The notes under the pieces are model-generated. The model ran no database searches and was not told the origin of the DNA. It saw only the letters and a list, made by a program, of their open reading frames with translations. Both the position numbers and the translations under genes were made by a program. 64,000 nt of DNA from Planctomycetaceae bacterium (GTDB lineage: Bacteria > Planctomycetota > Planctomycetia > Pirellulales > Pirellulaceae), in the NCBI GenBank assembly GCA_012729315.1, contig JAAYDI010000211.1, positions 62,001-126,000 of the forward strand, in the 5' to 3' direction. Positions 5,760 through 60,819 of this stretch are shown here, piece by piece (the first letter of the stretch is position 1; each line of letters opens with the position of its first letter).

Positions 5760-6572
5760 ATGCAACAACGATCGACGACCCTGATTTGGATGTTTCTTAT
5801 GTTGACGGTTTTCACCGGCCTGCCGCCGACGGCCGCGGGACACACGATGTACGTGAACTTGACGGACTACGTGCCTCACCTGCGGCGCGGCGCCACCATG
5901 TTCTTCGGATGGGGCGAGGCTCTTCCCGTGGGGGGCATGCTCGGAGCGGACTGGCTCGAGACCCTCAAGATCGTGGATCCGGAGGGCGAAGTGCGGCCGC
6001 TCGACAAGCCCACTGAGTTCCTGACCCGCGTGGAACTCGCCAAAGAGGGAACGCATATTCTGGCGGCCGAACTCAGGCCGGGATTCTACACGATCTACAA
6101 GGAAGGGGATCAGAAGAAGCATCACATGGGCCCCAAGACGGAAGTGCAGAATGTTGAATCGAGCCACTACTATTGCCAGCAAGGCAAGGCGATTTTCAAC
6201 GCGGGCGCGCTGAGCGATACGTTCAAGCGACCGGTCGGCCACAGTCTGGAGATCATTCCGCTGAAGAATCCGGCTCTGTTGCGCGAGGGCGACATGCTGC
6301 CCGTTCAGGTTCTCTTCGAGGGCAAATCGGTGCCGGGCTATCCCAAGCTCATGGCCACGTACATGGGTTTCTCAACGACGGGCGCGTTTGCCTATGCCAA
6401 GAGCGTCATCCATGGCCGTGCCGAGGTGAAGATATCGCATGCGGGCGTGTGGTACCTCAACGTGAATTACCGCACGCGCCCCACCGGCGATCTGGCCGAC
6501 AAATGCGACGAAGTGTCCTACACCGCGACCATATCGTTCGAGGTTGGCCGCTCTCCCGGCAGCGACGAATAA
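5760..6572 (+). CDS. DUF4198-family exported protein
   Basis: A 270-residue protein. The start at 5760 is preceded by AGGGAGG and gives a signal peptide (MQQRSTTLIWMFLMLTVFTG ... TAAG|H). The mature chain starts with a His and runs YVNLTDYVPHLRRGATMFFGWGEALP, the DUF4198 pattern, with ELRPGFYTIYKEG later. DUF4198 proteins are beta-rich envelope proteins often found with nickel or cobalt uptake genes, but binding is not shown for this protein. An in-frame ATG at 5709 would add a 17-residue N-extension. First gene of a plus-strand operon with a membrane ferredoxin, a double-cubane-type reductase and its activase. Confidence 0.75.
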   Translation: MQQRSTTLIWMFLMLTVFTGLPPTAAGHTMYVNLTDYVPHLRRGATMFFGWGEALPVGGMLGADWLETLKIVDPEGEVRPLDKPTEFLTRVELAKEGTHILAAELRPGFYTIYKEGDQKKHHMGPKTEVQNVESSHYYCQQGKAIFNAGALSDTFKRPVGHSLEIIPLKNPALLREGDMLPVQVLFEGKSVPGYPKLMATYMGFSTTGAFAYAKSVIHGRAEVKISHAGVWYLNVNYRTRPTGDLADKCDEVSYTATISFEVGRSPGSDE

Positions 6573-6581
6573 GGAGGGGTG

Positions 6582-6595
6582 CCAGCCCGGGCTGG
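6582..6595. other. Perfect 14-base palindrome between the two DUF4198 genes
   Basis: CCAGCCCGGGCTGG is self-complementary and can fold as a 5-bp stem with a CCGG loop. It lies 10 bases after the first gene's stop and about 100 bases before the next start. It could be an intercistronic RNA hairpin or a protein site; no T-run follows, so termination is unlikely. Confidence 0.35.
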
Positions 6596-6698
6596 TGAGT
6601 GGAGAAGGGAACAGGATGTCTCCTTCTCCGCTCTCTTCATGATCTGCCTCCCGCGAACTGACAGGAGTGACGGTGTACGGGAGCACGAGGATTCGGGA

Positions 6699-8099
6699 AT
6701 GATGACTGTGACGAAGTGGCTTGTCTGGCTGTCGTACTTGGCCATCGCTTCCACCGCGGCGGCGTCTGATCTGCCGGGCGCGATCTGGTGGTCCGCCGAG
6801 GGCCTCGGCGCAAGGGGCCGCGGCGGAGTTCCCTCGGGCGTCGTGAAATCCGCGGTGGTTGGGCGAGCGGGCCCTGACGGCTCGAAGCACGCCGCGCCGG
6901 GAGACTCGACGTCCGCCGCAACTCATGGCCGCTCGGTGGAGCAACACGCGGTTGAGTCCGCTGCGAAGCGTGGCGGGCGGGGTCATGATGCTGGCGTTCC
7001 GCCGCCTCATGTCCGAGCGGGGCTGAACGAGGGCGGACAACCACCCGTTCACGTGCTGGAGCGAATGCGGCAAGGCGGCATGCCATCTCATTCGATGCCG
7101 GGGACCGACTCCGCCCCGAGTGGTCATGGCGGCGGCCAATCGGGTGGGCGTCCAGGTGGTCAATCACCGAGCCGAGCGGAGATGTTGGCGATGCTGAGCA
7201 AGCCCAAGCCGCTGTTGCTGTGCTGGGGCGCCTTTCCGGCCACGGAAGGCAAAGACAGTCCACTCGGACAACTGGTCGACATCGAGAAGATGAAGACGTG
7301 GATCCGCCTGCCGAACGGCTCAATGGTGGCTGCGGAGGTGAACATGGAGCAGGACACGGTCGTGACCAAATGTCCTCCCGAATCAAAAGCCGACAGCGAG
7401 CTGCCCAACGGTGTGTACGTCGTGGGCATGCACCTGGACGCGGGCATCATGGATTTCGATGCGGACGGAGAGCTGGAACGCGTCCATTTCTATGCCAACG
7501 CGCTGGCATCCCGCTTCAGCCGCGACGGCGACTCGGGCAGCGATCCCGACGTGCTCTTCCGGGACGCTGAGAAGGTGGCTCTCGAAATCGGTCCCATCAC
7601 AACCGGGACGGGCCGTGGTGGCTTCCTGACCACCAGCCAGACGGCTATGGAAGAAAACAAGCTGCAGGTGCTGTATCAAGGGGCACCCCTGGCTAACGCC
7701 GAGGTGAGCGTGTTGTCCGACAGCGGCTGGCAGAATCGACTCATGACGGACGAGCAGGGCATTCTGACGGTCGTCCCGGTGGGAAAGAAGTCGGATGGTC
7801 GGGTGCGCATGACTCCGGCGGATCAATGCCTGTACGTCGTCCTGCACAAGGTGCGGACACCGGGAGAGCTGGGAGGGAGGGCTTACGCATCCGAGTACCA
7901 CTGCGCCTCGCTGCTGCTGGGCGTGCGGATGCCGGGTCCGGAATGGAAGAGCAAGTCCGAGGGATTTCGCCTGGCAACCGTTTCCGGCGTGGGTTTTCTG
8001 GTGCTTGCCGGCGGTTTCGGGATTTATCGCCGCCGCAGGCGCGCCGCGGAAATCATGGTCCAGTTCGATCGGCACCGCATCAGCCGAGGTGACTTATGA
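6699..8099 (+). CDS. Membrane-anchored DUF4198-like protein with His/Gly-rich linker
   Basis: A 466-residue protein. The start (ATG ATG at 6699) was chosen for the signal peptide MMTVTKWLVWLSYLAIASTAAAS. Residues about 25-160 are low-complexity, rich in Gly, Ser, Pro and His (GRGGHDAG, SHSMPG, GHGGGQSGGRPGG). A DUF4198-like domain follows (ADSELPNGVYVVGMHLDAGI, then LQVLYQGAPLANAEVSVLSD, TDEQGILTVVPVG). A transmembrane helix (GVGFLVLAGGFGIY) and a basic RRRRRA cytoplasmic tail end the protein. The order suggests an exported domain tethered to the inner membrane. The stop overlaps the next start in ATGA. The His-rich linker could bind metal, which is inference. Confidence 0.65.
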   Translation: MMTVTKWLVWLSYLAIASTAAASDLPGAIWWSAEGLGARGRGGVPSGVVKSAVVGRAGPDGSKHAAPGDSTSAATHGRSVEQHAVESAAKRGGRGHDAGVPPPHVRAGLNEGGQPPVHVLERMRQGGMPSHSMPGTDSAPSGHGGGQSGGRPGGQSPSRAEMLAMLSKPKPLLLCWGAFPATEGKDSPLGQLVDIEKMKTWIRLPNGSMVAAEVNMEQDTVVTKCPPESKADSELPNGVYVVGMHLDAGIMDFDADGELERVHFYANALASRFSRDGDSGSDPDVLFRDAEKVALEIGPITTGTGRGGFLTTSQTAMEENKLQVLYQGAPLANAEVSVLSDSGWQNRLMTDEQGILTVVPVGKKSDGRVRMTPADQCLYVVLHKVRTPGELGGRAYASEYHCASLLLGVRMPGPEWKSKSEGFRLATVSGVGFLVLAGGFGIYRRRRRAAEIMVQFDRHRISRGDL

Positions 8100-9127
8100 G
8101 GATGTCGACACTTCGCTGGACCGTGCTGGTCATCGCGTTCATCGTGCTGACGTATGGGGGTTTGGTCGGCATTTCCCTGGGAGATTTCCTGCCGACTTTC
8201 GCATGCTGGTATGTCGGGGAATCCCGCGGAGGCGACTGCTTCTTGTGGCACGTGCAGCACCATTTCAGTGGACATGGAGGTCCGGGCTATCTGGTCCGGC
8301 CGAACGCTCCGATGCTTCTCTATTTCTTCCTGCTCCTGCTCGTGCTAGGGAAGGCGTGGTGCGGCTGGATCTGCCCGCTGGGATTCATCATGGACGTGCT
8401 GGATCTGGCCCGCCGCAGACTCAACATGGGTTATCTGTTCTTTTCGCAGCGACTACGGGCCCGCTTGGCGCCGATCAAGTGGGTCTTGCTGTTTCTCTCC
8501 CTCGTCGTGCCACTGTCCTGCTTTCCATTCTTCATGCGGTCCCAGATCGCGTCCGACCTGAGTCAGCCGTACTGCCAGTGGTGTCCCGCGAAATATGTGG
8601 TGCCGCTGTGCGTGGGGAATGTGGAAGAGATCGCCGTCAACTTTCGCAGCGGCGTGGGTATCTTCATGACCGCCGTGGGGCTGGTCGTGGCGGGCCTGTT
8701 CCTGATCGGCGCCCTGACCAAGAGGCGGTTCTGGTGTTCGTTCTGCCCCATGGGATTAGTCATCGGGCTATGCCGCAAGATCAGCATTGTCAAGCTGAAG
8801 AAGAACTGCCAGGCGTGCACCCGCTGCGGGATCTGCTACAACGTGTGCCCGCTGGACATCGAGGAGATCTTCACGGAACGCACGCGGACGAACGTAACCT
8901 ACCAGGACTGCATTCTCTGCATGAAGTGTATTGAAAACTGCCCGGAAGAAGGCGTCCTGAGCGCCACGTTTTGTGGCAGGACGATCTACCGTGCCACGCA
9001 AAAAGGGTTCTTTTCGAACCCCGTCGCGTCAGGCCGACGGGCGCGGCAAGAGCCTGCGGTAGGCGCAGCGGATACGATCAGCGCCGACGAAGGGGAGCCG
9101 GTTCTTTCGGGCTCCCGACCATCATGA
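8096..9127 (+). CDS. NapH/CcoG-type membrane iron-sulfur protein
   Basis: A 343-residue protein with about four or five membrane helices. It carries WCGWICP (C89/C93), CQWCP (C160/C163) and WCSFCP (C214/C217), the Cys-Pro motifs typical of NapH/RnfA-like electron carriers. Two [4Fe-4S] ferredoxin motifs follow: C241xxC244xxC247xxxC251P and C272xxC275xxC278xxxC282P. Such proteins pass electrons between the quinone pool or periplasm and cytosolic acceptors. It overlaps both neighbours by ATGA (8096 and 9124), so it is translationally coupled to the DUF4198-like protein and to the reductase. I infer that it feeds electrons to the activase/reductase pair. Confidence 0.85.
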   Translation: MRMSTLRWTVLVIAFIVLTYGGLVGISLGDFLPTFACWYVGESRGGDCFLWHVQHHFSGHGGPGYLVRPNAPMLLYFFLLLLVLGKAWCGWICPLGFIMDVLDLARRRLNMGYLFFSQRLRARLAPIKWVLLFLSLVVPLSCFPFFMRSQIASDLSQPYCQWCPAKYVVPLCVGNVEEIAVNFRSGVGIFMTAVGLVVAGLFLIGALTKRRFWCSFCPMGLVIGLCRKISIVKLKKNCQACTRCGICYNVCPLDIEEIFTERTRTNVTYQDCILCMKCIENCPEEGVLSATFCGRTIYRATQKGFFSNPVASGRRARQEPAVGAADTISADEGEPVLSGSRPS

Positions 9128-10470
9128 GGAAACGAACATCGATGCCACGACAAGAGGACACCACCGAGGAACTGCAACGGCGGAAGGCGAGGTTTGTGCG
9201 CGCGCTAGGCAGATCGACGGAGAAGGTATTGCACGAACTGGAAGCGGACGACCGCCGGCCGGCCACGATGAATCGATTCCTGGACGTCCTACGGCGGGCG
9301 TTCCTGAGCGGCGAGGAGGTAGACGGCCCGGCGCTTCATCCCGGCCAGAAAGTGATCGGCACCTATTGCATCATGGCGCCCGAGGAGTTCATCTACGCGG
9401 CCGGCGCGGTTCCGATCCGGCTGTGTGGAGGCAGTTACGAGGCAGCTCTGGCAGGCGATGACCTGGTGCCCCGCGACATCTGTCCGGTCGTCAGGGCATC
9501 GGCCGGTCTCACCTCGTTCGGGCTGCTGCCGATCTATCGGCGGTTCGACGCCGTGATCGTGCCCACCACCTGCGACGGCAAACGCAAGCTCGGCGAGGCC
9601 CTCTCGGATTTCCTGCCGGTCTGGATGCTCGAGGTCCCGCACATCAAGGAAACGGAACGTTCTCGGATCGAGTGGCTCGAGCAGATCTATGCTGTCAAAC
9701 GCAACATTGAGAAGCTCACGTGCCGGAAGATCAATCGCAAGACGCTCCGCGAGGCGATCGGCAGGATTGCCCGAGCCCAGTACCAGGCGAGACGGCTGCA
9801 CGAGCTGCGGTCGGCGGATCCGATCGTCGTGCTTGGCCAACACGCCATGCTGGCGCTCAACGCCTACGCCTACGATACGGTGGACGAGTGGGCCGGCGCC
9901 ATGACACGGTTCAACGATGAACTGGAGCAGCGTCGCCGGCAGGGCCGGTCGGTGGCCGACAAGCGCGCTCCGCGCGTCCTACTGGCCGGCTCGCCCGTCG
10001 TCTTCCCGAACTGGAAACTGCCCATGCTCATTGAAGAGATGGGTGGCGTTGTGGTCATTGACGAAACCTGCATGGCCGATCGACTTCTGTACGATCCGGT
10101 CGGGGTGAGTGAAGGCTCGATGACCGAGATGATCCGCGGGATCGCCGCCCGGCTGATCATGCCCTGCACCTGCCCGTCATTTTCGCCGAACGAAGACCGC
10201 ATGTACCGCCTGAGGCAGTTGGTCGAGAAGTTCCGCGTCGATGGCGTGATCTACCACGTTCTCAAGGGCTGCATGATTTATGACTTCGAGGTCGCGCGGG
10301 TGGAGCGCATGATGAAGGAAGCGGGCGTGCCGCTGCTGCGAGTGGAAACGGATTACAACCCGGAGGACGTGGAGCAACTGCGGACGCGGATCGAGGCATT
10401 CCTGGAGATGACCGGAGCGAAGAAGAGCGAAGCAAGGTGCGAGTCCAATGAAATACTATGCGGGAATTGA
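9124..10470 (+). CDS. 2-hydroxyacyl-CoA dehydratase-like D component (double-cubane reductase type)
   Basis: A 448-residue protein. The ATG at 9124 overlaps the previous stop in ATGA; ATG 9142 is an alternative. It contains the HgdB/FldB/BcrC family landmarks: TYCIMAPEEFIYAAGAVPIRL (C82), RDICPVVRASAG (C120), VPTTCDGKRK (C150), DETCMADR (C316), MPCTCPSF (C348/C350) and LKGCMIYD (C383). One such polypeptide paired with an activase and no second dehydratase subunit fits the homodimeric double-cubane cluster proteins (DCCP), where an [Fe8S9] cluster is reduced by an ATP-dependent partner and can reduce small molecules such as acetylene. The true substrate here is unknown. A benzoyl-CoA-reductase-type or dehydratase role is less likely without partner subunits. 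Confidence 0.82.
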   Translation: MRKRTSMPRQEDTTEELQRRKARFVRALGRSTEKVLHELEADDRRPATMNRFLDVLRRAFLSGEEVDGPALHPGQKVIGTYCIMAPEEFIYAAGAVPIRLCGGSYEAALAGDDLVPRDICPVVRASAGLTSFGLLPIYRRFDAVIVPTTCDGKRKLGEALSDFLPVWMLEVPHIKETERSRIEWLEQIYAVKRNIEKLTCRKINRKTLREAIGRIARAQYQARRLHELRSADPIVVLGQHAMLALNAYAYDTVDEWAGAMTRFNDELEQRRRQGRSVADKRAPRVLLAGSPVVFPNWKLPMLIEEMGGVVVIDETCMADRLLYDPVGVSEGSMTEMIRGIAARLIMPCTCPSFSPNEDRMYRLRQLVEKFRVDGVIYHVLKGCMIYDFEVARVERMMKEAGVPLLRVETDYNPEDVEQLRTRIEAFLEMTGAKKSEARCESNEILCGN

Positions 10471-11233
10471 CGCCGGCTCGACGTACGTCAAGACAGCCGT
10501 GATCAACAATGGCTCGGTGCTGGGGTCCCGCGTGGCCCGCAGCGGTGTCGTCTGTGCCGAGACGGCCGGCCGACTGCTCGACGACCTGCTCTCCGATCTC
10601 GGCCTGCACCGTGCCGATCTCGCCTCGGTCATGGCCACGGGGTACGGTCGCAGGACGATCCTGTTCGCCGACGACACGGTCAGCGAGATCGCGGCCCATG
10701 CCGGAGGCACGCGCATGACGGCGCCGGAAGGCGTGCGGGTCAAGACGATTATCGACATCGGCGGCCAGGACAGCAAGGTGATCGTGCTGGACGATGACGG
10801 CGAGGTCAAGAACTTCGTCATGAACGACAAGTGCGCCGCCGGCACGGGGCGGTTCATGGAAGTGCTGGCGGAGACCCTGGAAGCATCTATCGACGAACTG
10901 GGCGAACTCGCCCGCCGGTCGACCAACCCCTGCCAGATCAACAGCCTGTGCGTGGTATTTGCACAGTCCGAGGTCATCTCCCTGCTCGCTCGGGGCAAAG
11001 ACCGCGCGGATATCGTCGCCGGCCTCCACAACTCGCTGGCCGCGCGGGTGGGAAGGATGGCGCGCCGAGACGGGCTCCAACGCGACGTGCTGATGACCGG
11101 CGGAGGCGCGTTGAATTCGGGACTCCAGGCGGCCTTTGAGGAAGAGCTGATGACCGATGTCCACGTGGCCCGGCACGCTCAATTCAATGGTGCGATAGGA
11201 GCCGCGGTACTGGCCCAGAAGCGGACCGGCTGA
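10448..11233 (+). CDS. ATP-dependent activase of the dehydratase/double-cubane reductase
   Basis: A 261-residue ASKHA-fold ATPase of the HgdC/BcrAD activator family. It has YAGIDAGSTYVKTAVI (phosphate 1), IDIGGQDSKVI (phosphate 2) and MTGGGALNSGL (adenosine). The two cysteines that hold the single [4Fe-4S] cluster between the subunits of the dimer are present, C129 (NDKCAAGTGRFME) and C168 (NSLCVVFAQSEVI). These proteins use ATP hydrolysis to push one electron at very low potential onto the partner's cluster. The gene starts inside the preceding reductase gene (23-base overlap), a strong sign of a 1:1 functional pair. Confidence 0.9.
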   Translation: MKYYAGIDAGSTYVKTAVINNGSVLGSRVARSGVVCAETAGRLLDDLLSDLGLHRADLASVMATGYGRRTILFADDTVSEIAAHAGGTRMTAPEGVRVKTIIDIGGQDSKVIVLDDDGEVKNFVMNDKCAAGTGRFMEVLAETLEASIDELGELARRSTNPCQINSLCVVFAQSEVISLLARGKDRADIVAGLHNSLAARVGRMARRDGLQRDVLMTGGGALNSGLQAAFEEELMTDVHVARHAQFNGAIGAAVLAQKRTG

Positions 11234-11351
11234 GGCCTGCCCGGGGCCGTGACAGTCCGCGCACATAGCGACGGTACCTGTAACAACGAAACCACCACTG
11301 AACCCGGAAGGCCGAGCCCGGCCACCCCGCGGAAAGGGCCGGAGCAACTGC

Positions 11352-12029
11352 ATGATCACCGAATCCACCGCGCCTTTGCTCGCCGCCCTGCTGGCAGGCC
11401 TGACCTACGGTACCCTCTACTGTGGGCCCTCTTGCGGCCCCTTCCTGTGCGCCTTCATCATGGGCACCAATACCGGCAGCTTTCAGGCGGCGCGATCGTT
11501 GGCCGTTTTCACTGCGGCTCGAGTGACAACCTACGGGATCGTGGGAGTCGTATCGGGCCTGTTGGGCACTGCCGTCTTCTCCACGCATACCAGCGGTTCC
11601 CCGGTGCTGGGAGTCGTAGTGATCATGATCGGGGGATGGATGTGGCGGCGAACTCCCCAGCGTCAGGAACCGGACGGGCTGGTACAGATTGGCAAATCAT
11701 CGACAGCCCGCGGTGCCCAGTGTATGCGCAGCGCTGGCGCAAGGCCGCTGTGGTTGGCCGGAACGGCCTTTGCGCTGACACCCTGCCCGCCCATGCTGGC
11801 CATGCTCGCCTGCGCAGCCCACACCGGCTCGCCCTGGACGGGTGCCGCCATCATGATGCTATTTGGGCTGGGCACCTCGCTTTCCCCGCTGATACTCATC
11901 TGCCTCATGGCGGGCCACTTCTCGCAACGGTTGAGAAGCTGTGCGCCGGAGCAGGCGGTCCTGTTCCGGCGCACAGCCAGCCTGACACTCGTGGCCTTGG
12001 GAAGCTCCATGGTGTTTCACGGAGGATGA
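11352..12029 (+). CDS. Small TauE/SafE-UreH_2-like membrane protein
   Basis: A 225-residue protein with about six hydrophobic segments in two halves, the layout of the UreH_2/DsbD_2 and TauE/SafE transporter-like families. The N-terminal half carries LYCGPSCGPFLC (C24, C28, C33); the second half has LTPCPPMLAMLACAAH, a matching Cys-Pro site. Paired Cys-Pro motifs in the membrane are used for thiol electron transfer in DsbD-like proteins and for metal or sulfite export in others. Last gene of the operon; a 118-base gap separates it from the activase, and it converges on a PEP-CTERM gene with a hairpin between. Confidence 0.72.
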   Translation: MITESTAPLLAALLAGLTYGTLYCGPSCGPFLCAFIMGTNTGSFQAARSLAVFTAARVTTYGIVGVVSGLLGTAVFSTHTSGSPVLGVVVIMIGGWMWRRTPQRQEPDGLVQIGKSSTARGAQCMRSAGARPLWLAGTAFALTPCPPMLAMLACAAHTGSPWTGAAIMMLFGLGTSLSPLILICLMAGHFSQRLRSCAPEQAVLFRRTASLTLVALGSSMVFHGG

Positions 12030-12263: not shown

Positions 12264-12971
12264 TCAGACGCCGGTCCTGCCCGTCGTCCGGAGGCGAATG
12301 CGCCTGGCGATGCCCAAGCCGATCATACCGGTCCCGAGCAGGACTGCCGCACTCGGCTCAGGAACCGTCGAGATGTAGGGAGCAGCGCCACTGCCGAAGC
12401 CCGAGTATTTGCCGGGACCACTCGGGTCGACGGGAGCGGAAAAAACCAATCCGTGGTTCTTGATCGAGCCGATGGCCCAGCCGTTGTAGAGGTCCGTGAT
12501 ATCCACGTAATGGACGCCGTTGCGCGTCATGGCGACGCTGTGCAGCGGCTGTTCGGTGAGCAGATAATCCCGAAGCGCCGTGCGCGCGAGCACACCTGCT
12601 TCGTTGTCTGCGGGTTTGAGATTGGCCACGTCGTTTAGCCCCGGATTGTAAAGATCGAGATAGCCGGGTTGATCCGGTGTCGCGGGTTTAACCGACATGG
12701 AGCCCACCCCCTGCAGATCGTAGGCCAGATAGGCACGGTCGACGGCTGAATTTCCGACATCGAATTTGATCCATCCGAAGCCCCAAAAGTCGCGGCCAAG
12801 CGGCTGGCCGAGAAAATAGTCTCTTTCGCTCGTGTAGGCGCTGCCGCCGCCCATGAAGGTGTAGCCCGTCAAGGTACATTCGCCAATGACTTCGGCCGAA
12901 GCCGGTTGGACCAGGGACAAGCCGCCCACAAGCGAGGCGAACACACACGCGATAATCGGTTGTCGTATCAT
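12264..12971 (-). CDS. PEP-CTERM sorting-domain protein
   Basis: A 235-residue exported protein with signal peptide MIRQPIIACVFASLVGGLSL...ASA|E. The C-terminus has the complete PEP-CTERM tripartite signal: VPEPSAAVLLGTGMIGLGIA followed by the basic RRIRLRTTGR. Such proteins are recognised by an exosortase and released to the cell surface or matrix; no exosortase is in this window. The mature domain (ECTLTGYTFMGGGSAYTSER, FGWIKFDVGNSAVDRAYLAYDL) looks like a beta-sandwich of the carbohydrate-binding type. It is the last gene of a minus-strand block with DUF1559 and hemP. Confidence 0.85.
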   Translation of the reverse strand: MIRQPIIACVFASLVGGLSLVQPASAEVIGECTLTGYTFMGGGSAYTSERDYFLGQPLGRDFWGFGWIKFDVGNSAVDRAYLAYDLQGVGSMSVKPATPDQPGYLDLYNPGLNDVANLKPADNEAGVLARTALRDYLLTEQPLHSVAMTRNGVHYVDITDLYNGWAIGSIKNHGLVFSAPVDPSGPGKYSGFGSGAAPYISTVPEPSAAVLLGTGMIGLGIARRIRLRTTGRTGV

Positions 12972-13143: not shown

Positions 13144-14163
13144 TCACTGGTAACCCGTCGGAACTTCCCCACCGGCACGTGTGCCAAACGCGCGCCAGGC
13201 GTCCAGTTCGATGTGCTCAGCGACGAAACGGACGCTCCCGTCGCCGAAGGTTGTAATGACGCCGCCGGGGTGGAATGAACGGGCAGCATAGATGCCAATG
13301 CCCATCGAAGAGATGTCCGGTATCCGGTCGTTTGGCCGCATATAGGTGGTGAATGCCGTGGCTGGAGGCTTGCCGACAATCCAGCCGAAACCGCGATCTC
13401 CAAACCAGAGCCGGCATCGCGCCGCCCAGAAGGCCACATCGGGATCGACCAGACCGTGCAGGCCGGGCCCGTCGGTGTTGGGGGCATGGCCCGTGAATCC
13501 ATACAGGCGATCGAGGCCGCCCGGCATGTTCGCCGGAGCAGTGATGCTGCTCCGGCGTCCCAAAACGCTCTCGGAGACGACGATTGTGTGGCTGGACCCA
13601 TCCCGCATGTCCCGCAGGCCTAACGTTGACCCGTAATAGAACATTCCGTCGGTGGGATACCGCAAATCGTAGTTGGTCCCCCGGCCCGAACCGCCGCAGA
13701 CGACGTAATTGCCCCCGGCCAGTAGCTCGCCCGCTTTTGGCTCGTACAGGTCCTCGCCGCCATCGCTGGGGCACCGAAATAGCGAAAGCCTCGTTCTGGC
13801 GGCCTCCGCTTGGACGGGATTCAACGTCTGGTTATGACTCGAGCCCAAGTACAACGGTTGCGACAGGTCGATCAGCTCTCGGAGGTTCCTCTGTTCAACA
13901 AATGGCAGCAACCGCGCCTGCACCGAGAAACTGGTCAGCGATGTACTTCCCAAACCAGGAAAACGATCGAATTGCGAGTGGTAGTTGTGCAGCGCCAGAC
14001 CGACTTGCCTGAGATTGTTGGAGCAACTCATCCGCCGCGCCGCCTCGCGCGCGGCTTGCACGGCCGGCAACAGCAACCCGATCAGAATGCCGATGACGGC
14101 AATGACTACGAGCAGTTCGACCAGCGTGAAACCTGTTGGGGGCGCCGCGTTGCGCGTTGGCAT
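13144..14163 (-). CDS. DUF1559 protein with prepilin-type N-terminus
   Basis: A 339-residue protein from the ATG at 14163, preceded by AGGAG; an upstream in-frame start at 14205 would only lengthen the leader. The N-terminus has the type IV prepilin signal TGFTLVELLVVIAVIGILI (cleavage between G11 and F12) and [12 protein letters not shown], then the H-x-Gly DUF1559 core (NYHSQFDRFPGLG) and the C-terminal H-x-GG (FHPGGVITTFGDGSVRFV). Planctomycetes carry many DUF1559 genes, thought to encode pseudopilin-like surface proteins; their roles are mostly unknown. Downstream of hemP and upstream of a PEP-CTERM gene on the same strand. Confidence 0.9.
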   Translation of the reverse strand: MPTRNAAPPTGFTLVELLVVIAVIGILIGLLLPAVQAAREAARRMSCSNNLRQVGLALHNYHSQFDRFPGLGSTSLTSFSVQARLLPFVEQRNLRELIDLSQPLYLGSSHNQTLNPVQAEAARTRLSLFRCPSDGGEDLYEPKAGELLAGGNYVVCGGSGRGTNYDLRYPTDGMFYYGSTLGLRDMRDGSSHTIVVSESVLGRRSSITAPANMPGGLDRLYGFTGHAPNTDGPGLHGLVDPDVAFWAARCRLWFGDRGFGWIVGKPPATAFTTYMRPNDRIPDISSMGIGIYAARSFHPGGVITTFGDGSVRFVAEHIELDAWRAFGTRAGGEVPTGYQ

Positions 14164-14295
14164 GGGAAACTCTCCTAGCCCAGGGAAATGGATAGGGATC
14201 AACAACCTGGCTGGCTAGGAAACGCCCCTCGCGGGAGAATCGCCTGGCTGGCGAACGAAAGATAATCGCAGCCCCGGCCGCCATGGAGCCGGTGG

Positions 14296-16172: not shown

Positions 16173-17282
16173 TCAGTCGAGTCCATCTTGTTCCCGTATC
16201 GTCTCGCACCCTGCCCGCGTGCTCAGCGCGCGCCAGATGCCTAACTGGATTGTCTCCGAGACGAAGTGGACGCTGCCGTCCACGAACAGGGTGTTGACGC
16301 CCGCGGGATGGCGGCTGCGCGCGGCGAAGAAGCCGGTGCCTTTCGCGTACATGTCGGGAACCCGCGTATTGGGAGGCATGTACGCATTGAACGTCACGAA
16401 CGCCTCTCGCCCCCAGATCCACGTCGCACCGCGAATACCACGCCAGAAATCGGCCGAGGCGAGGAGCGCTGGCAAGTCCGGATCGCTCACGCCCACCAAT
16501 CCGGGCCCGTTGAGATTGAGCACGAACTGGTTGCACATACTGGCCATCTGGCGAATCGATTCCTGTGGCGCCGGACCGTACGTGCTTTCGTCGGAGCCCA
16601 GCAGTGACTCCGACGCGAAGACCGTCTGGCTCGTCCCGTCCCGGACGTCGCCGAATCCAACGACCGAGTTGTTCCAGAGCATCCCGTCGCTGCGAAATCG
16701 CAGGTCATACCGGGTGCCGGTCCCCGAGCCGCCGCAGAACACGTAGCTCGTGCCGGCGGACCGCCCGGCCGGGTCGCCGGAGAAATAGAGCAGGCTGGAG
16801 AACAGCGAGTCTTCTTCGTCACTCGGGCACACGAACCCCGGGACTAACGTCTGGGCGGCTCGTATCTGGGCGGGATGGACCATGACGCTGTTGCCACCCC
16901 CTTGCATCAAAGGCGATTGGAAGTCAATCCGTTCCGTGAGCGATTGTTGCTCCAAGAATGGCAGAATTCTGGCGTGGACGGAAAAGCTGGTGTGTGGCTG
17001 ACCTCCCAGCCCGGGAAAGACACGATGGACGGAGGCGTAGTTGTGAAGCGCCAGCCCGATCTGCTTCAGATGATTCGTGCACTGCGCGCGCCGCGCCGCC
17101 TCCCGTGCCGCCTGCACAGCAGGCAGCAGGAGAGCGATCAGCACACCGATGATCGCGATCCCGACGAGCAACTCCACCAAGGTAAGACCGAAACGGCACC
17201 GCCAACGGCGCGAGGTTGCCTGCCACGTGACCGCGGTTGTGCCGCGTCCGACAGCCGGCACGGATTCCAAATACATGGTCAT
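16173..17282 (-). CDS. DUF1559 protein with prepilin-type N-terminus (paralogue)
   Basis: A 369-residue protein starting at 17282 with GGAG upstream. The prepilin motif is slightly off consensus ([17 protein letters not shown], with L in place of F before TLVE), followed by [30 protein letters not shown]. The body matches the DUF1559 at 13144-14163 closely in order and motifs (CGGSGxGTxYDLR, DGMxxxxSxxGxxDxRDGxS, SESxLG, HPxGVxTxFxDGSVxFV), so the two are paralogues. The long N-terminal leader before the hydrophobic helix (about 30 residues) is unusual. It is downstream of a PEP-CTERM gene, from which it is separated by a strong inverted repeat. Confidence 0.88.
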
Positions 17283-40115: not shown

Positions 40116-40121
40116 CGTGCT

Positions 40122-40137
40122 GGCCGGCGCGCCGGCC
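40122..40137. repeat. Perfect 16-base GC palindrome within the sugar operon
   Basis: GGCCGGCGCGCCGGCC is fully self-complementary; a near-copy (GCCGGCGCACCGGCC) follows at 40142-40156. Located in the 85-base gap between the epimerase and Gfo/Idh genes. It may be an intercistronic hairpin or REP-like element. Confidence 0.5.
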
Positions 40138-40200
40138 CTCCGCCGGCGCACCGGCCATTGTCTGCAAACCGCTGTAACTAACTGTCAGATCGAGGAACCA

Positions 40201-41361
40201 ATGGCAAAACCATTCAACGTCGGCATCATCGGCATGGGCTTCATGGGCCGGACTCATTCGAACGCCTATCGCAAGGTCAGCAACTTCTTCCAGCTCGAGC
40301 ACAAGCCAGTCCTGAAAGCCGTCTGTGCGCTGGAACCGGAAGAAAAGCTCAAGGCGTTCGCCGATACATGGGGCTTTGAATCGTACGAAACCGACTGGCG
40401 CAAGCTGGTCGAACGCAAGGACATCGATCAGATCGATATCTGCACCCCCAATGCCACGCACAAGGAACTGGTGCTGGCCGCCGCGGCGGCCGGCAAGAGC
40501 GTGATCTGCGAGAAGCCGCTGGCCATGAGTGCCGCGGAGGCGGAAGAGATGGTCGCCGCGGTCGAAAAGGCGGGGGTAGCAAACCTCGTCTGTTTCAATT
40601 ACCGCCGCGTACCGGCCGTCACGTTGGCCCGGCAACTGGTGGATGAAGGGCGCATCGGACGACCGTTCCACTACCGCGTCAACTATCTGCAGGACTGGAC
40701 GATCGCCTCCGATGTGCCCCAGGGGGGAGCCACCTTGTGGCGGCTCGACATCAAGACCGCCGGCTCCGGCGTCACCGGCGACCTGCTGGCCCACTCGATT
40801 GATACCGCCGAATGGCTCAACGGCCCCATCCAGTCGGTTGTGGCCAAGACCGAAACGTTCATCAAGGAGCGGATGCATCAGGACACGGGCAAGGTGGAGC
40901 CGGTGAAGATCGACGACGCCTGCATGTTCCTGGCGATGTTCGCCAACGGCTCCATGGGGACGTTCGAAAGCACCCGCTATGCCCGCGGCCGCAAGAACTA
41001 CAACACCTTCGAGCTCAACGGCGAAGCTGGAAGTCTGTACTTCAACCTCGAGGATCCCCAGTACCTCGATTACTTCCGCTACCTTGATCCGGCGACCGGC
41101 AAGAAGGTGGACAGCCACGTCACCGGCTGGCAGCGCATACACGTTACCAACTCCGAACACCCCTATATGAAGAAGTGGTGGGTGCCCGGCTGCACGATCG
41201 GCTATGAACACACCTTTGTGCACACGATCGCCGACTACCTGCACGGCATCGAGACGGGCACTCCTGCGCAGCCCGATTTCCGGAGTGGTTTGCGCACGCA
41301 GAAGGTGTGCGACGCGATTATCGCGAGTGCGGCGAGCGGGAAGTGGGTCGACATCCCGTAA
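40201..41361 (+). CDS. Gfo/Idh/MocA family oxidoreductase (cytosolic)
   Basis: A 386-residue protein from ATG 40201 with GAGGA before it. Rossmann motif [40 protein letters not shown] holding the conserved EKP lysine; the second-domain Asp/His ([17 protein letters not shown]) fits the usual proton-transfer residues. It lacks an export signal. Members oxidise or reduce sugars and cyclitols with NAD(P). Between two TIM-barrel isomerases in one operon, an organisation like inositol or keto-sugar catabolism. Confidence 0.92.
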
Positions 41362-58748: not shown

Positions 58749-59042
58749 CACACGGACTCCAAGCGATCCACACGACCGAACACGGCCTGACCCACAGAGA
58801 GAGGGGGGGCCAAGCGCCACTCCAGCCAGACTGTCCCTCATGGTATTGGTCGATGCGGAAGTGGTCTAGCGGTTGCAGCGTGCGGGGCGACCGATCCCGG
58901 AGGGGGGGGAATTCGGCCAGCCGGCGTGATCCACCCGGTTTTCCAGGTGTACGGCAGCACAACTCGAATTATGATAGAAGCACATGGAACGATCGGCGCG
59001 GTGCCGCAACCGGTGCTGCGCGCGCTCGGGCTGCCATTTCTT

Positions 59043-59065
59043 GGCGGGCCCCCTTGGGGTCCGCC
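59043..59065 (+). other. Leader hairpin before the beta-propeller gene
   Basis: Bases 59043-59052 pair with 59056-59065 (10 pairs, one G-U) around a 3-base loop, about 40 bases before the start. A TATGAT at 58970-58975 could be the -10 of the promoter. The rest of the 358-base gap 58749-59106 shows nothing more. Confidence 0.35.
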
Positions 59066-59106
59066 CGGTCTTGAGGTGTCGCCGCTCGTCACAAGAGAAC
59101 AGCACT

Positions 59107-60819
59107 ATGATTCGCCGCGTCGTTGTTGTGGCTCTGTTGTCATTCACCTGTCTGGCCTGGACTCCTCTTCTGGCGGCAGAATCTGACCGCGGTGGACTGA
59201 TTTCGCAGTCGGTCGCACAGCAGCATGGACTGGAACGTGCGTGGTTTACGCAGGCCAGCGTGCTTCCCCAGCGGGGTGAAGTGGCGAACCTGCGACTGCA
59301 CGTCAACCTGAACAAGGCGCAGACGATCTTCCGCGTGACCGATCAGCACGGGCGGAACACCGTTTTCTCGGAACGGCATCTGGACAACTTCGGCCAGGCG
59401 CTGGGAGTGGCAGGTGCGGAGAAGGCGGCCGCCGAAAAGGTCCGGCTGCTCGGCCTGGAAGGCATCCAGGCATCGGTCGATCAGCAGGTGGTGCCGGACG
59501 CCACGCTCTACATGTCGAGCAGCAGCGGCATGGTGCAGGCGCTGGACGCCGAGACGGGCCGCCTGCTGTGGTCGACCCAGGTGGGACGGCCCGACTACGT
59601 GACGACGGAGATGGCAACCACGGACGACCTGGTAGCCCTGGTCAACGGCCAGCACATTTACGTGTTGCAGGCAGCGGATGGCGCGTTGGCAAACGAACGG
59701 CGAGTTGCTGGCGGAGCGCCGGCAGCCGGACCGGCGATGGTGGGCACGCGGCTGTTCGTTCCCACGCTTAGCGGCCAACTGCACGCGTATCGCTTTGGCC
59801 CCGACGATCCGGGTTGGCCGGAGGTCTATCCGGCGCGAGGCTCGGTCCGCTTCGCACCAACCGCGATCGGCAATCATGTGATGTGGGCCACCAATGCCGG
59901 TGTCGTCACGTCCATCATCCCCGGCAAACCGGGCGTCAGGTATCGACTGCAGTTCGATACGGCCATTGCCGGACCACTCGTGTATGCACCTCCAACGCAC
60001 ATGCTGACGGTCACCGATACCGGGTTCCTGTACTGCTTCGACGTCCTGACAAGCGGCCTCGTGTGGCGCTTTTCCAGCGGGGATGCGACGGCCGAACCAG
60101 CCTCCGTGGTGCGGGACACCGTCTACCTGGTGAGCCGCCATGCGGGCATGCGTGCGGTGGACGCCGCGACCGGTCAAGAGAAGTGGTGGGCACGCGGCGT
60201 CCGACATTTCGTGGCCGCCACCAAGGACCGAGTCTACGCCACGTCCGGCAACAATGTGATGATGGTGATCAACGGCAGCACCGGCAAGACGCTGTCCCAA
60301 TTCCCGATGCCCCCCACCAACCGCCTGTTCGTCAACAACCAGACCGATCGTATTTACGTCAGCACCGAGTCGGGGCTCATCCAGTGTCTCCGTGAACGCG
60401 ATGCCTACTGGCCCACCGTGCACGTCACCGGAGCCGAGATGGCGGCCGCCGAAGCGGCGGCCGAAGCGGCCACTCGGCCAGGCGCAAAGCAGCCAGAAGC
60501 AGCGGAACCGCAGCCGGAGGACGCACAGCCGTTCGATCCGTTCCGGCGCGAAACGGACGACGCCGATCCGTTTGCCAAGCCTGCGGCAACTGGCCAGCCA
60601 CCCGCCGCCGCACCGGCCAGGAACCCGTTCGAGGACGACGATGAGTCGGATCAGGCTGCACCGCCGGACGAGGCAGACGACGCGGGGGACGCAGATGACT
60701 GGACCGAGGCGGACGACGAGGAGGATGCGGATAGCTGGACCGATGCGGACGACGAGGAGGACGCGGACGACGAGGCCTATGCGGACGAGGCGGACGAGGC
60801 GGACGACGAGGGACCGTGA
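59107..60819 (+). CDS. Secreted PQQ-like beta-propeller protein with acidic tail
   Basis: A 570-residue protein from ATG 59107. Signal peptide MIRRVVVVALLSFTCLAWTP...LLAA. Residues about 130-440 carry PQQ-repeat-like blades (LYMSSSSGMVQALDAETGRL, LFVPTLSGQLHAYRF, FLYCFDVLTSGLVWRFSSGD, VYATSGNNVMMVINGSTGKT). The tail from residue 460 to the end is low-complexity, Ala/Pro then almost wholly Asp/Glu/Ala (repeats of WTEADDEEDAD and EADEADDEGP). It probably works in the periplasm as a scaffold, and the acidic tail could bind cations or another protein. Spaced 124 bases from purH. Confidence 0.8.
   Translation: MIRRVVVVALLSFTCLAWTPLLAAESDRGGLISQSVAQQHGLERAWFTQASVLPQRGEVANLRLHVNLNKAQTIFRVTDQHGRNTVFSERHLDNFGQALGVAGAEKAAAEKVRLLGLEGIQASVDQQVVPDATLYMSSSSGMVQALDAETGRLLWSTQVGRPDYVTTEMATTDDLVALVNGQHIYVLQAADGALANERRVAGGAPAAGPAMVGTRLFVPTLSGQLHAYRFGPDDPGWPEVYPARGSVRFAPTAIGNHVMWATNAGVVTSIIPGKPGVRYRLQFDTAIAGPLVYAPPTHMLTVTDTGFLYCFDVLTSGLVWRFSSGDATAEPASVVRDTVYLVSRHAGMRAVDAATGQEKWWARGVRHFVAATKDRVYATSGNNVMMVINGSTGKTLSQFPMPPTNRLFVNNQTDRIYVSTESGLIQCLRERDAYWPTVHVTGAEMAAAEAAAEAATRPGAKQPEAAEPQPEDAQPFDPFRRETDDADPFAKPAATGQPPAAAPARNPFEDDDESDQAAPPDEADDAGDADDWTEADDEEDADSWTDADDEEDADDEAYADEADEADDEGP

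Follow-up and report, generated by a model that had tools for sequence, protein, structure and literature searches.

Several described systems come near the locus reported here, a six-gene cassette (P0001 to P0006) lying at 5760-12029 of the window, by which we mean the whole 64,000-nucleotide stretch of Planctomycetaceae bacterium DNA analysed (contig JAAYDI010000211.1, positions 62,001 to 126,000). Double-cubane cluster proteins (DCCPs) with their reductases (Protein Data Bank (PDB) entries 6ENO and 7YYL; YjiM/YjiL in Escherichia coli) have in common with it the HGD-D family, six candidate Cys and an activase in the next gene, whereas the D component of the cassette belongs to a separate clade, carries an extra Cys (C348) and has a NapH-like gene directly upstream. 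Probably the closest printed analogue is the flavinylated PepSY-DUF2271-DUF4198 cluster, proposed for extracytosolic iron reduction (PMC8238504), which also joins a transmembrane electron carrier to secreted DUF4198 proteins and in some cases to TonB genes. The cassette differs from it in having a Fer4_5 membrane ferredoxin in place of PepSY, an ATP-driven pair and no match to a flavin mononucleotide (FMN)-binding domain in its six genes (Pfam returned neither this domain nor ApbE for these and four neighbouring open reading frames, the rest of the window being partly scanned). Membrane ferredoxins of the NapH/NosR type share with P0003 the membrane Cys motif and two C-terminal 4Fe-4S sites. 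ATP-driven reduction of tetrapyrrole metals in anaerobes is likewise carried out by the MCR activation complex (PMC12176620) and by corrinoid activators (PMC6739815), but with other proteins and apparently without a membrane conduit. Finally, Zcp (PDB 9MHI-9MHN) and IsDUF4198 (9GCB) have the fold predicted for the exported part of P0002 and are sequence relatives of P0001; P0002 departs from them in its C-terminal membrane anchor, and its metal site is putative. Each protein family is already known; a literature search, with most subscription journals outside its coverage, gave no paper matching the full set of terms. We read the cassette as an ATP-driven, envelope-spanning low-potential reductase whose target, on the periplasmic side, would be a metal centre or chelate, and put the probability of this reading at roughly 0.45.

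P0004 passes the NCBIfam double_cubane model (NF040772) by half a bit (350.5 bits, cut-off 350), and 84 of 84 cassette D proteins match that model at E<=1e-10, an E threshold rather than the cut-off of the model. Its best solved relatives are PDB 7YYL and 6ENO (E 3e-77 to 4e-77). In the alignment, C82, C120, C150, C316, C350 and C383 are common to 7YYL and YjiM; we take the 7YYL equivalents to be the cluster ligands, hence the six are candidate ligands in P0004. They are Cys in 83-84 of the 84 cassette D proteins, the sole miss being a fragment (L063; related loci are given by L numbers throughout), and the extra C348 is Cys in 79. Because BzdN also carries all six, these residues cannot separate the double-cubane from the benzoyl-CoA reductase family. 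An ordinary 2-hydroxyacyl-CoA dehydratase or benzoyl-CoA reductase would draw on the same HGD-D and activase Pfam families, but models and tree reject such an identity, which we regard as extremely improbable: P0004 scores far below the HadC (105.5 of 700) and BzdN (77.1 of 453.8) models, and it is the single HGD-D match in the whole genome (assembly 96.65% complete), leaving no second cluster-bearing D subunit found there. A firm place in the dehydratase clade had been named in the initial annotation as the outcome that would speak against a double-cubane protein; in a careful tree of 34 rows, a clade of the window protein with HadC, BzdN and MbdN is rejected (approximately unbiased test, p-AU 2.5e-7). 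In that tree, the window protein groups with three delta/desulfobacterial and three Bacillota rows (support 100/99), the 7YYL/YjiM clade (96/99) excludes it, and constraining it with 7YYL and YjiM alone gives p-AU 2e-4. A quick tree of 128 rows, built after removal of five poor or short D rows, places it next to the same five loci with an SH-aLRT of 94, though it gave long-branch warnings; the careful tree omits 94 of those 128 rows.

The activase, P0005, reaches 252.4 bits against the NCBIfam CoA_E_activ model (TIGR00241, cut-off 125.4) and matches PDB 4EHT at E 5e-62 and 7YYL_E at E 4e-40. Both cluster Cys pointed out beforehand, C129 and C168, are present and are Cys in all 73 aligned activases (window counted). 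Sequence comparison supports P0004/P0005 as a double-cubane-type pair, as first proposed, in a clade separate from 7YYL/YjiM, for which an [8Fe-9S] cluster and ATP-dependent reduction are predicted.

The initial annotation had also called P0003 a NapH-like membrane ferredoxin, which Pfam bears out (Fer4_5 and two 4Fe-4S sites). Its 16 Cys comprise eight ferredoxin Cys (241-282), four in the membrane motif (89/93/214/217) and four in periplasmic loops (37/48/160/163), and each is conserved in 65-67 of the 67 NapH-like proteins in the cassette alignment (window counted). The last four fall in two loops placed in the periplasm by hydropathy and the positive-inside pattern; they are extra with respect to E. 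coli NapH, which is without equivalents, and P0003 stays below the curated NapH cut-offs (TIGR02163, 77.4 of 213.05; PRK09477, 74.2 of 234). Weak matches are found to NosR (20.5 bits) and CcoG (16 bits), and the AlphaFold2 (AF2) model is fair (predicted local distance difference test, pLDDT, 82.2). From these residues P0003 looks like an electron wire through the membrane with the four periplasmic Cys as a putative site, cluster binding being predicted. In Sulfurimonas (L104, 6294-9047), a single 918-aa protein fuses Fer4_5, NosL and DUF4198; proteins of 917-918 aa stand at the same position in three Campylobacterota loci (L106, L120, L131), their likeness to the fusion being one of length alone.

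The direction of electron flow is where the readings part. In the model of the initial annotation, P0003 would oxidise quinol or a periplasmic donor and feed the pair, a cytosolic small molecule would be reduced, and the DUF4198 proteins would only buffer metal. Such inward flow to a cytosolic substrate is the main rival, and we consider it unlikely. The potential of quinol is too positive to serve a low-potential pair unless ATP makes up the difference; inward flow has no need for the four periplasmic Cys that E. coli NapH does without, and it leaves unexplained the TonB receptors found directly upstream in 39 of 61 loci. It gains from the published statements that NapH-like proteins probably take electrons from quinol in some cases (PMC8238504) and that DCCPs reduce acetylene, hydrazine and azide (PMC11971306). 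The loop Cys of P0003 and the Sulfurimonas Fer4_5-NosL-DUF4198 fusion fit electron export at least as well as import.

The cassette was compared over 83 related loci: 80 genome loci (the best 80 of 118 confirmed), two planctomycete genomes and one Sulfurovum plasmid. In 74 of the 83, the gene immediately upstream of the D gene is NapH-like (75 under a looser limit, L075 being missed with a 150-base overlap limit), and in 72 the D gene is immediately followed by the activase, three loci (L078, L099, L116) being truncated by contig ends. The membrane ferredoxin is in this sense the fixed partner of the pair that it had been supposed to be, and the six-gene arrangement is not a chance one: its NapH-D-activase core recurs in other phyla. 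A DsbD_2-type family accompanies the core in 62 loci (54 by single-sequence search), and all six families occur together in L054, L055 and L056. As a six-protein neighbourhood, which had been suggested as the unit to search for, the cassette holds in its core and is less constant in its DUF4198 pair. By single-sequence search, P0002-like proteins turn up in 39 of the 83 loci, where most scores are weak and only five exceed 50 bits, and 32 of 75 loci have one immediately upstream of NapH; the gene in that position in L053 and L055-L057 gives 127-207 bits with P0002. An alignment of genes upstream of NapH left out 16 of 64, ten of them without a check for likeness to P0002. An HxSCxxGH-type motif, absent from the window, is seen in the gene upstream of NapH at L032:5664-6674, L064:7935-8933 and L065:7959-8969. 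At planctomycete locus L033 (genome G354), the NapH-like gene is split over two open reading frames (6930-7870), by a frameshift or an assembly error. In Thermoplasmata (L091, L107), NapH adjoins the D gene with FG-GAP proteins beside it, and L107 has a MacB/FtsX protein as well.

As a control, 21 loci of the known DCCP clade were inspected, about half with flanks of up to 8 kb and the rest with 1.5 kb: the best NapH-like match near the D gene scores 53 bits, and three of the 21 have one at 34-53 bits, against a usual cassette score of at least 105 bits. A conserved partner D subunit in relatives had been put forward as a finding that would count against the double-cubane proposal. This is the case in part: ten loci have a second HGD-D-like gene near NapH (L059-L063, L066, L074, L079, L086, L090; Bacillota where labelled), none with a TonB receptor, and in all seven cases aligned the second protein retains no more than one of the six ligand Cys (similarity is weak and positions may be misplaced). 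To judge by these residues, it looks like a cluster-less accessory subunit.

On the periplasmic side, two exported DUF4198 proteins had been claimed. P0001 passes the Pfam cut-off of 34 bits with 117.6, and its residues 93-265 match Zcp with 53-55 bits and the PDB chain of Ni-bound DUF4198 with 25 bits. P0002 does not pass (19 bits), yet its predicted fold is that of DUF4198: the AF2 model (pLDDT 79.7; transmembrane segment at 424-442 by hydropathy) gives Z 14.7-15.1 against Zcp with Zn, Cu or Co bound (15.1 for the Zn-bound form) and Z 12.9 against Ni-bound DUF4198, the next rows standing at 6.2. The exported part of P0002 is predicted from this model to share the metal-binding DUF4198 fold, with a putative metal site of its own. 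In P0001, His28 is conserved in all five aligned homologues and could be the first mature residue; DUF4198 proteins can bind Ni through an N-terminal His, according to PMC12537917. The GWGH His of the other four homologues in this alignment is Glu in the window. P0006, previously described as TauE/SafE-like, is a DsbD_2 protein without a TauE match, though one relative is annotated as 'sulfite exporter TauE/SafE family'; its C24, C28 and C145 are kept in 57, 55 and 57 of 57 aligned proteins, and aligned position 115, Cys in 56 of 57, is Lys in the window. This DsbD_2 protein, the metal-binding folds, the NosL domain of the Sulfurimonas fusion and the weak NosR/CcoG matches of P0003 would also suit a maturation system comparable to the Nos accessory proteins, one that builds or loads the metal centre of an enzyme in the envelope. 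No client enzyme appears among the ten annotated recurrent gene families (the other recurrent families are not all annotated), and we hold such a role to be very unlikely.

Recurrent families at these loci include TonB receptor-like proteins in 53 of the 83 loci, TonB_C in 25, ExbB in 22, ExbD in 20, AcrB-type RND in 15 and CobN in six, each name resting on one representative. Sixty-one loci extend 2.5 kb or more upstream; in 39 of these, a TonB receptor on the same strand ends no further than 1.5 kb from the first gene of the cassette. Receptors number 2.19 per 10 kb upstream, whereas more than 4.5 kb downstream there are two in 311 kb, or 0.064 per 10 kb. FecCD, an ABC ATPase, Peripla_BP_2 and a tetrapyrrole methylase lie beside the cassette in L057, and two Peripla_BP_2 genes near it in L033. 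Together with the cobalamin riboswitches described below and the metal-bound DUF4198 structures, these neighbours lend weight to the earlier suggestion that the pair works with periplasmic metal-handling proteins, while the DUF4198 partners named for that role are the less constant part. In Ruminococcus flavefaciens (L074, 2332-7068), condensation, AMP-binding and carrier domains directly precede the cassette and ABC genes follow it; a metallophore is a possible product of these non-ribosomal peptide genes. The monoderm cassette neighbours examined gave no common clue.

In three loci the cassette operon is immediately preceded, on its own strand, by cobalamin riboswitches (RF00174): two in L033 and one each in L057 and L125. 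An additional one precedes the TonB-CobN genes of L057, and an AdoCbl-II match occurs further along in L033. Since L033 and L125 are sister rows (L004 in the tree is the gene of L033), the safe count is two origins, and both loci were chosen for the scan with such neighbours in mind. These riboswitches, the L057 genes and the CobN family would fit a corrinoid or haem-like tetrapyrrole reactivase, in which the pair makes Co(I) or aids metal removal in the salvage of an imported tetrapyrrole. Two papers add that CobN-like HmuS is needed for haem iron release, some hmu-like operons having a cobalamin riboswitch (PMC10100974), and that ATP-dependent corrinoid reduction exists (PMC6739815). Even so, 52 of the 55 loci scanned (out of 83) have no RF00174 at the cassette, although 40 of 49 cassette genomes searched contain one over the cut-off somewhere, mostly elsewhere, and neither the window nor its genome has any. 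A reading of the whole family as B12-only is weakened by these counts, and the reactivase is in our judgement quite unlikely.

Returning to outward reduction, what we observe is the set of genes, their synteny and neighbours, the conserved Cys, the clade and the predicted fold; the direction of electron flow, a periplasmic site and the class of substrate we infer. In the cytosol, P0005 would hydrolyse ATP and drive electrons onto the double-cubane-type P0004; P0003, by way of its 4Fe-4S sites in the cytosol, its membrane motif and its four-Cys loop site, would connect them to the periplasmic face. The electrons would arrive there at two proteins of the DUF4198 fold, the free P0001 and the membrane-anchored P0002, and would reduce a metal ion or metal chelate, and P0006 may handle thiols or metal at the same membrane. 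A TonB receptor would import the substrate (corrinoid, haem-like or metallophore-like compounds) in many diderm relatives; in the window organism, the substrate would have to enter without one. The power of a double-cubane cluster would suit stable tetrapyrroles or chelates: a class I benzoyl-CoA reductase that has a cluster of this kind accepts its second and third electrons only below -600 mV (PMC11971306), and the couples to be reached lie at -530 mV (protein-bound Co(II)/Co(I), PMC6739815) and -650 mV (free F430, PMC12176620).

Several observations weigh against this proposal. The window genome gave no TonB receptor match, in a search whose control returned a match in three of 14 known genomes, and the missing RF00174 there and at most cassettes counts in the same sense. 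Twenty-two of the 61 usable loci, monoderm Bacillota and archaea included, have no TonB receptor directly upstream, and in the close relatives L055 and L056 it lies about 4.8 kb away. The receptor class is uninformative as a substrate clue: all 33 receptors scanned match B12, siderophore and other models alike. P0001-like proteins occur in just four of the 83 loci. The NapH-D link is not unique to the cassette clade, NapH-like genes of at least 100 bits standing beside D genes outside both the cassette and control groups in planctomycete rows L018, L025, L038 and L042. Foldseek with the P0003 model returned no solved structure at E<=0.001, an absence that in itself proves nothing. Lastly, the loci were picked by similarity of the D protein and are rich in closely related Campylobacterota, so that the counts are not independent.

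Read directly from the window sequence, the six genes are co-directional, and the layout described in the initial annotation is exact: ATGA overlaps at 8096 (P0002/P0003) and 9124 (P0003/P0004) and a 23-base overlap at 10448 (P0004/P0005). Gaps of about 126 and 118 bases separate P0001 from P0002 and P0005 from P0006.

Table 1. Genes of the cassette, with positions in the window.
Gene	Position	Strand	Product and Pfam evidence
P0001	5760..6572	+	secreted DUF4198 protein; Pfam DUF4198 117.6 bits
P0002	6699..8099, start 6699 or 6702	+	predicted exported protein of DUF4198 fold, C-terminal membrane anchor at about aa 418-461
P0003	8096..9127	+	NapH-like four-helix membrane ferredoxin; Pfam Fer4_5, Fer4
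P0004	9124..10470	+	double-cubane-type HGD-D protein; Pfam HGD-D 315.7 bits
P0005	10448..11233	+	predicted ATP-hydrolysing activase; Pfam BcrAD_BadFG 198.1 bits
P0006	11352..12029	+	small DsbD_2-type membrane protein; Pfam DsbD_2 92.9 bits

Just downstream, on the opposite strand, lie a PEP-CTERM protein and two DUF1559 pilin-like proteins (12264-12971, 13144-14205, 16173-17282), which are probably unrelated to the cassette. Elsewhere in the window are a GFO/IDH/MocA oxidoreductase and a PQQ-type beta-propeller protein (40117-41361 and 58984-60819).

Within the order of the window organism, eight of 246 genomes match P0004 at E<=1e-20: its own and seven of another family, with 30-32% identity. 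No other genome of its own family in that sample (20 listed) matches at this threshold. The closest kin of P0004 are delta/desulfobacterial loci (57-61% identity), one of them a metagenome-assembled genome labelled Pseudomonadota, which suggests horizontal transfer.

More broadly, and tentatively, since we find the generalisation doubtful as it stands, bacteria of several phyla may use ATP, via a double-cubane cluster, to send electrons out along a dedicated membrane Fe-S wire and reduce periplasmic metal chelates whose stability puts them beyond NADH or quinol; corrinoids, tetrapyrroles and tight metallophores are proposed as candidates. A 2025 paper calls the physiological relevance of DCCP reactions still unclear (PMC11971306). 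A conserved cassette that joins the pair to a membrane conduit, with TonB receptors in many relatives and a cobalamin riboswitch in a few, gives DCCPs a testable job. If the proposal is true, double-cubane proteins would have a physiological role, there would be an ATP-driven extracytosolic reductase, and anaerobes would have one route to reduce very stable metal chelates.

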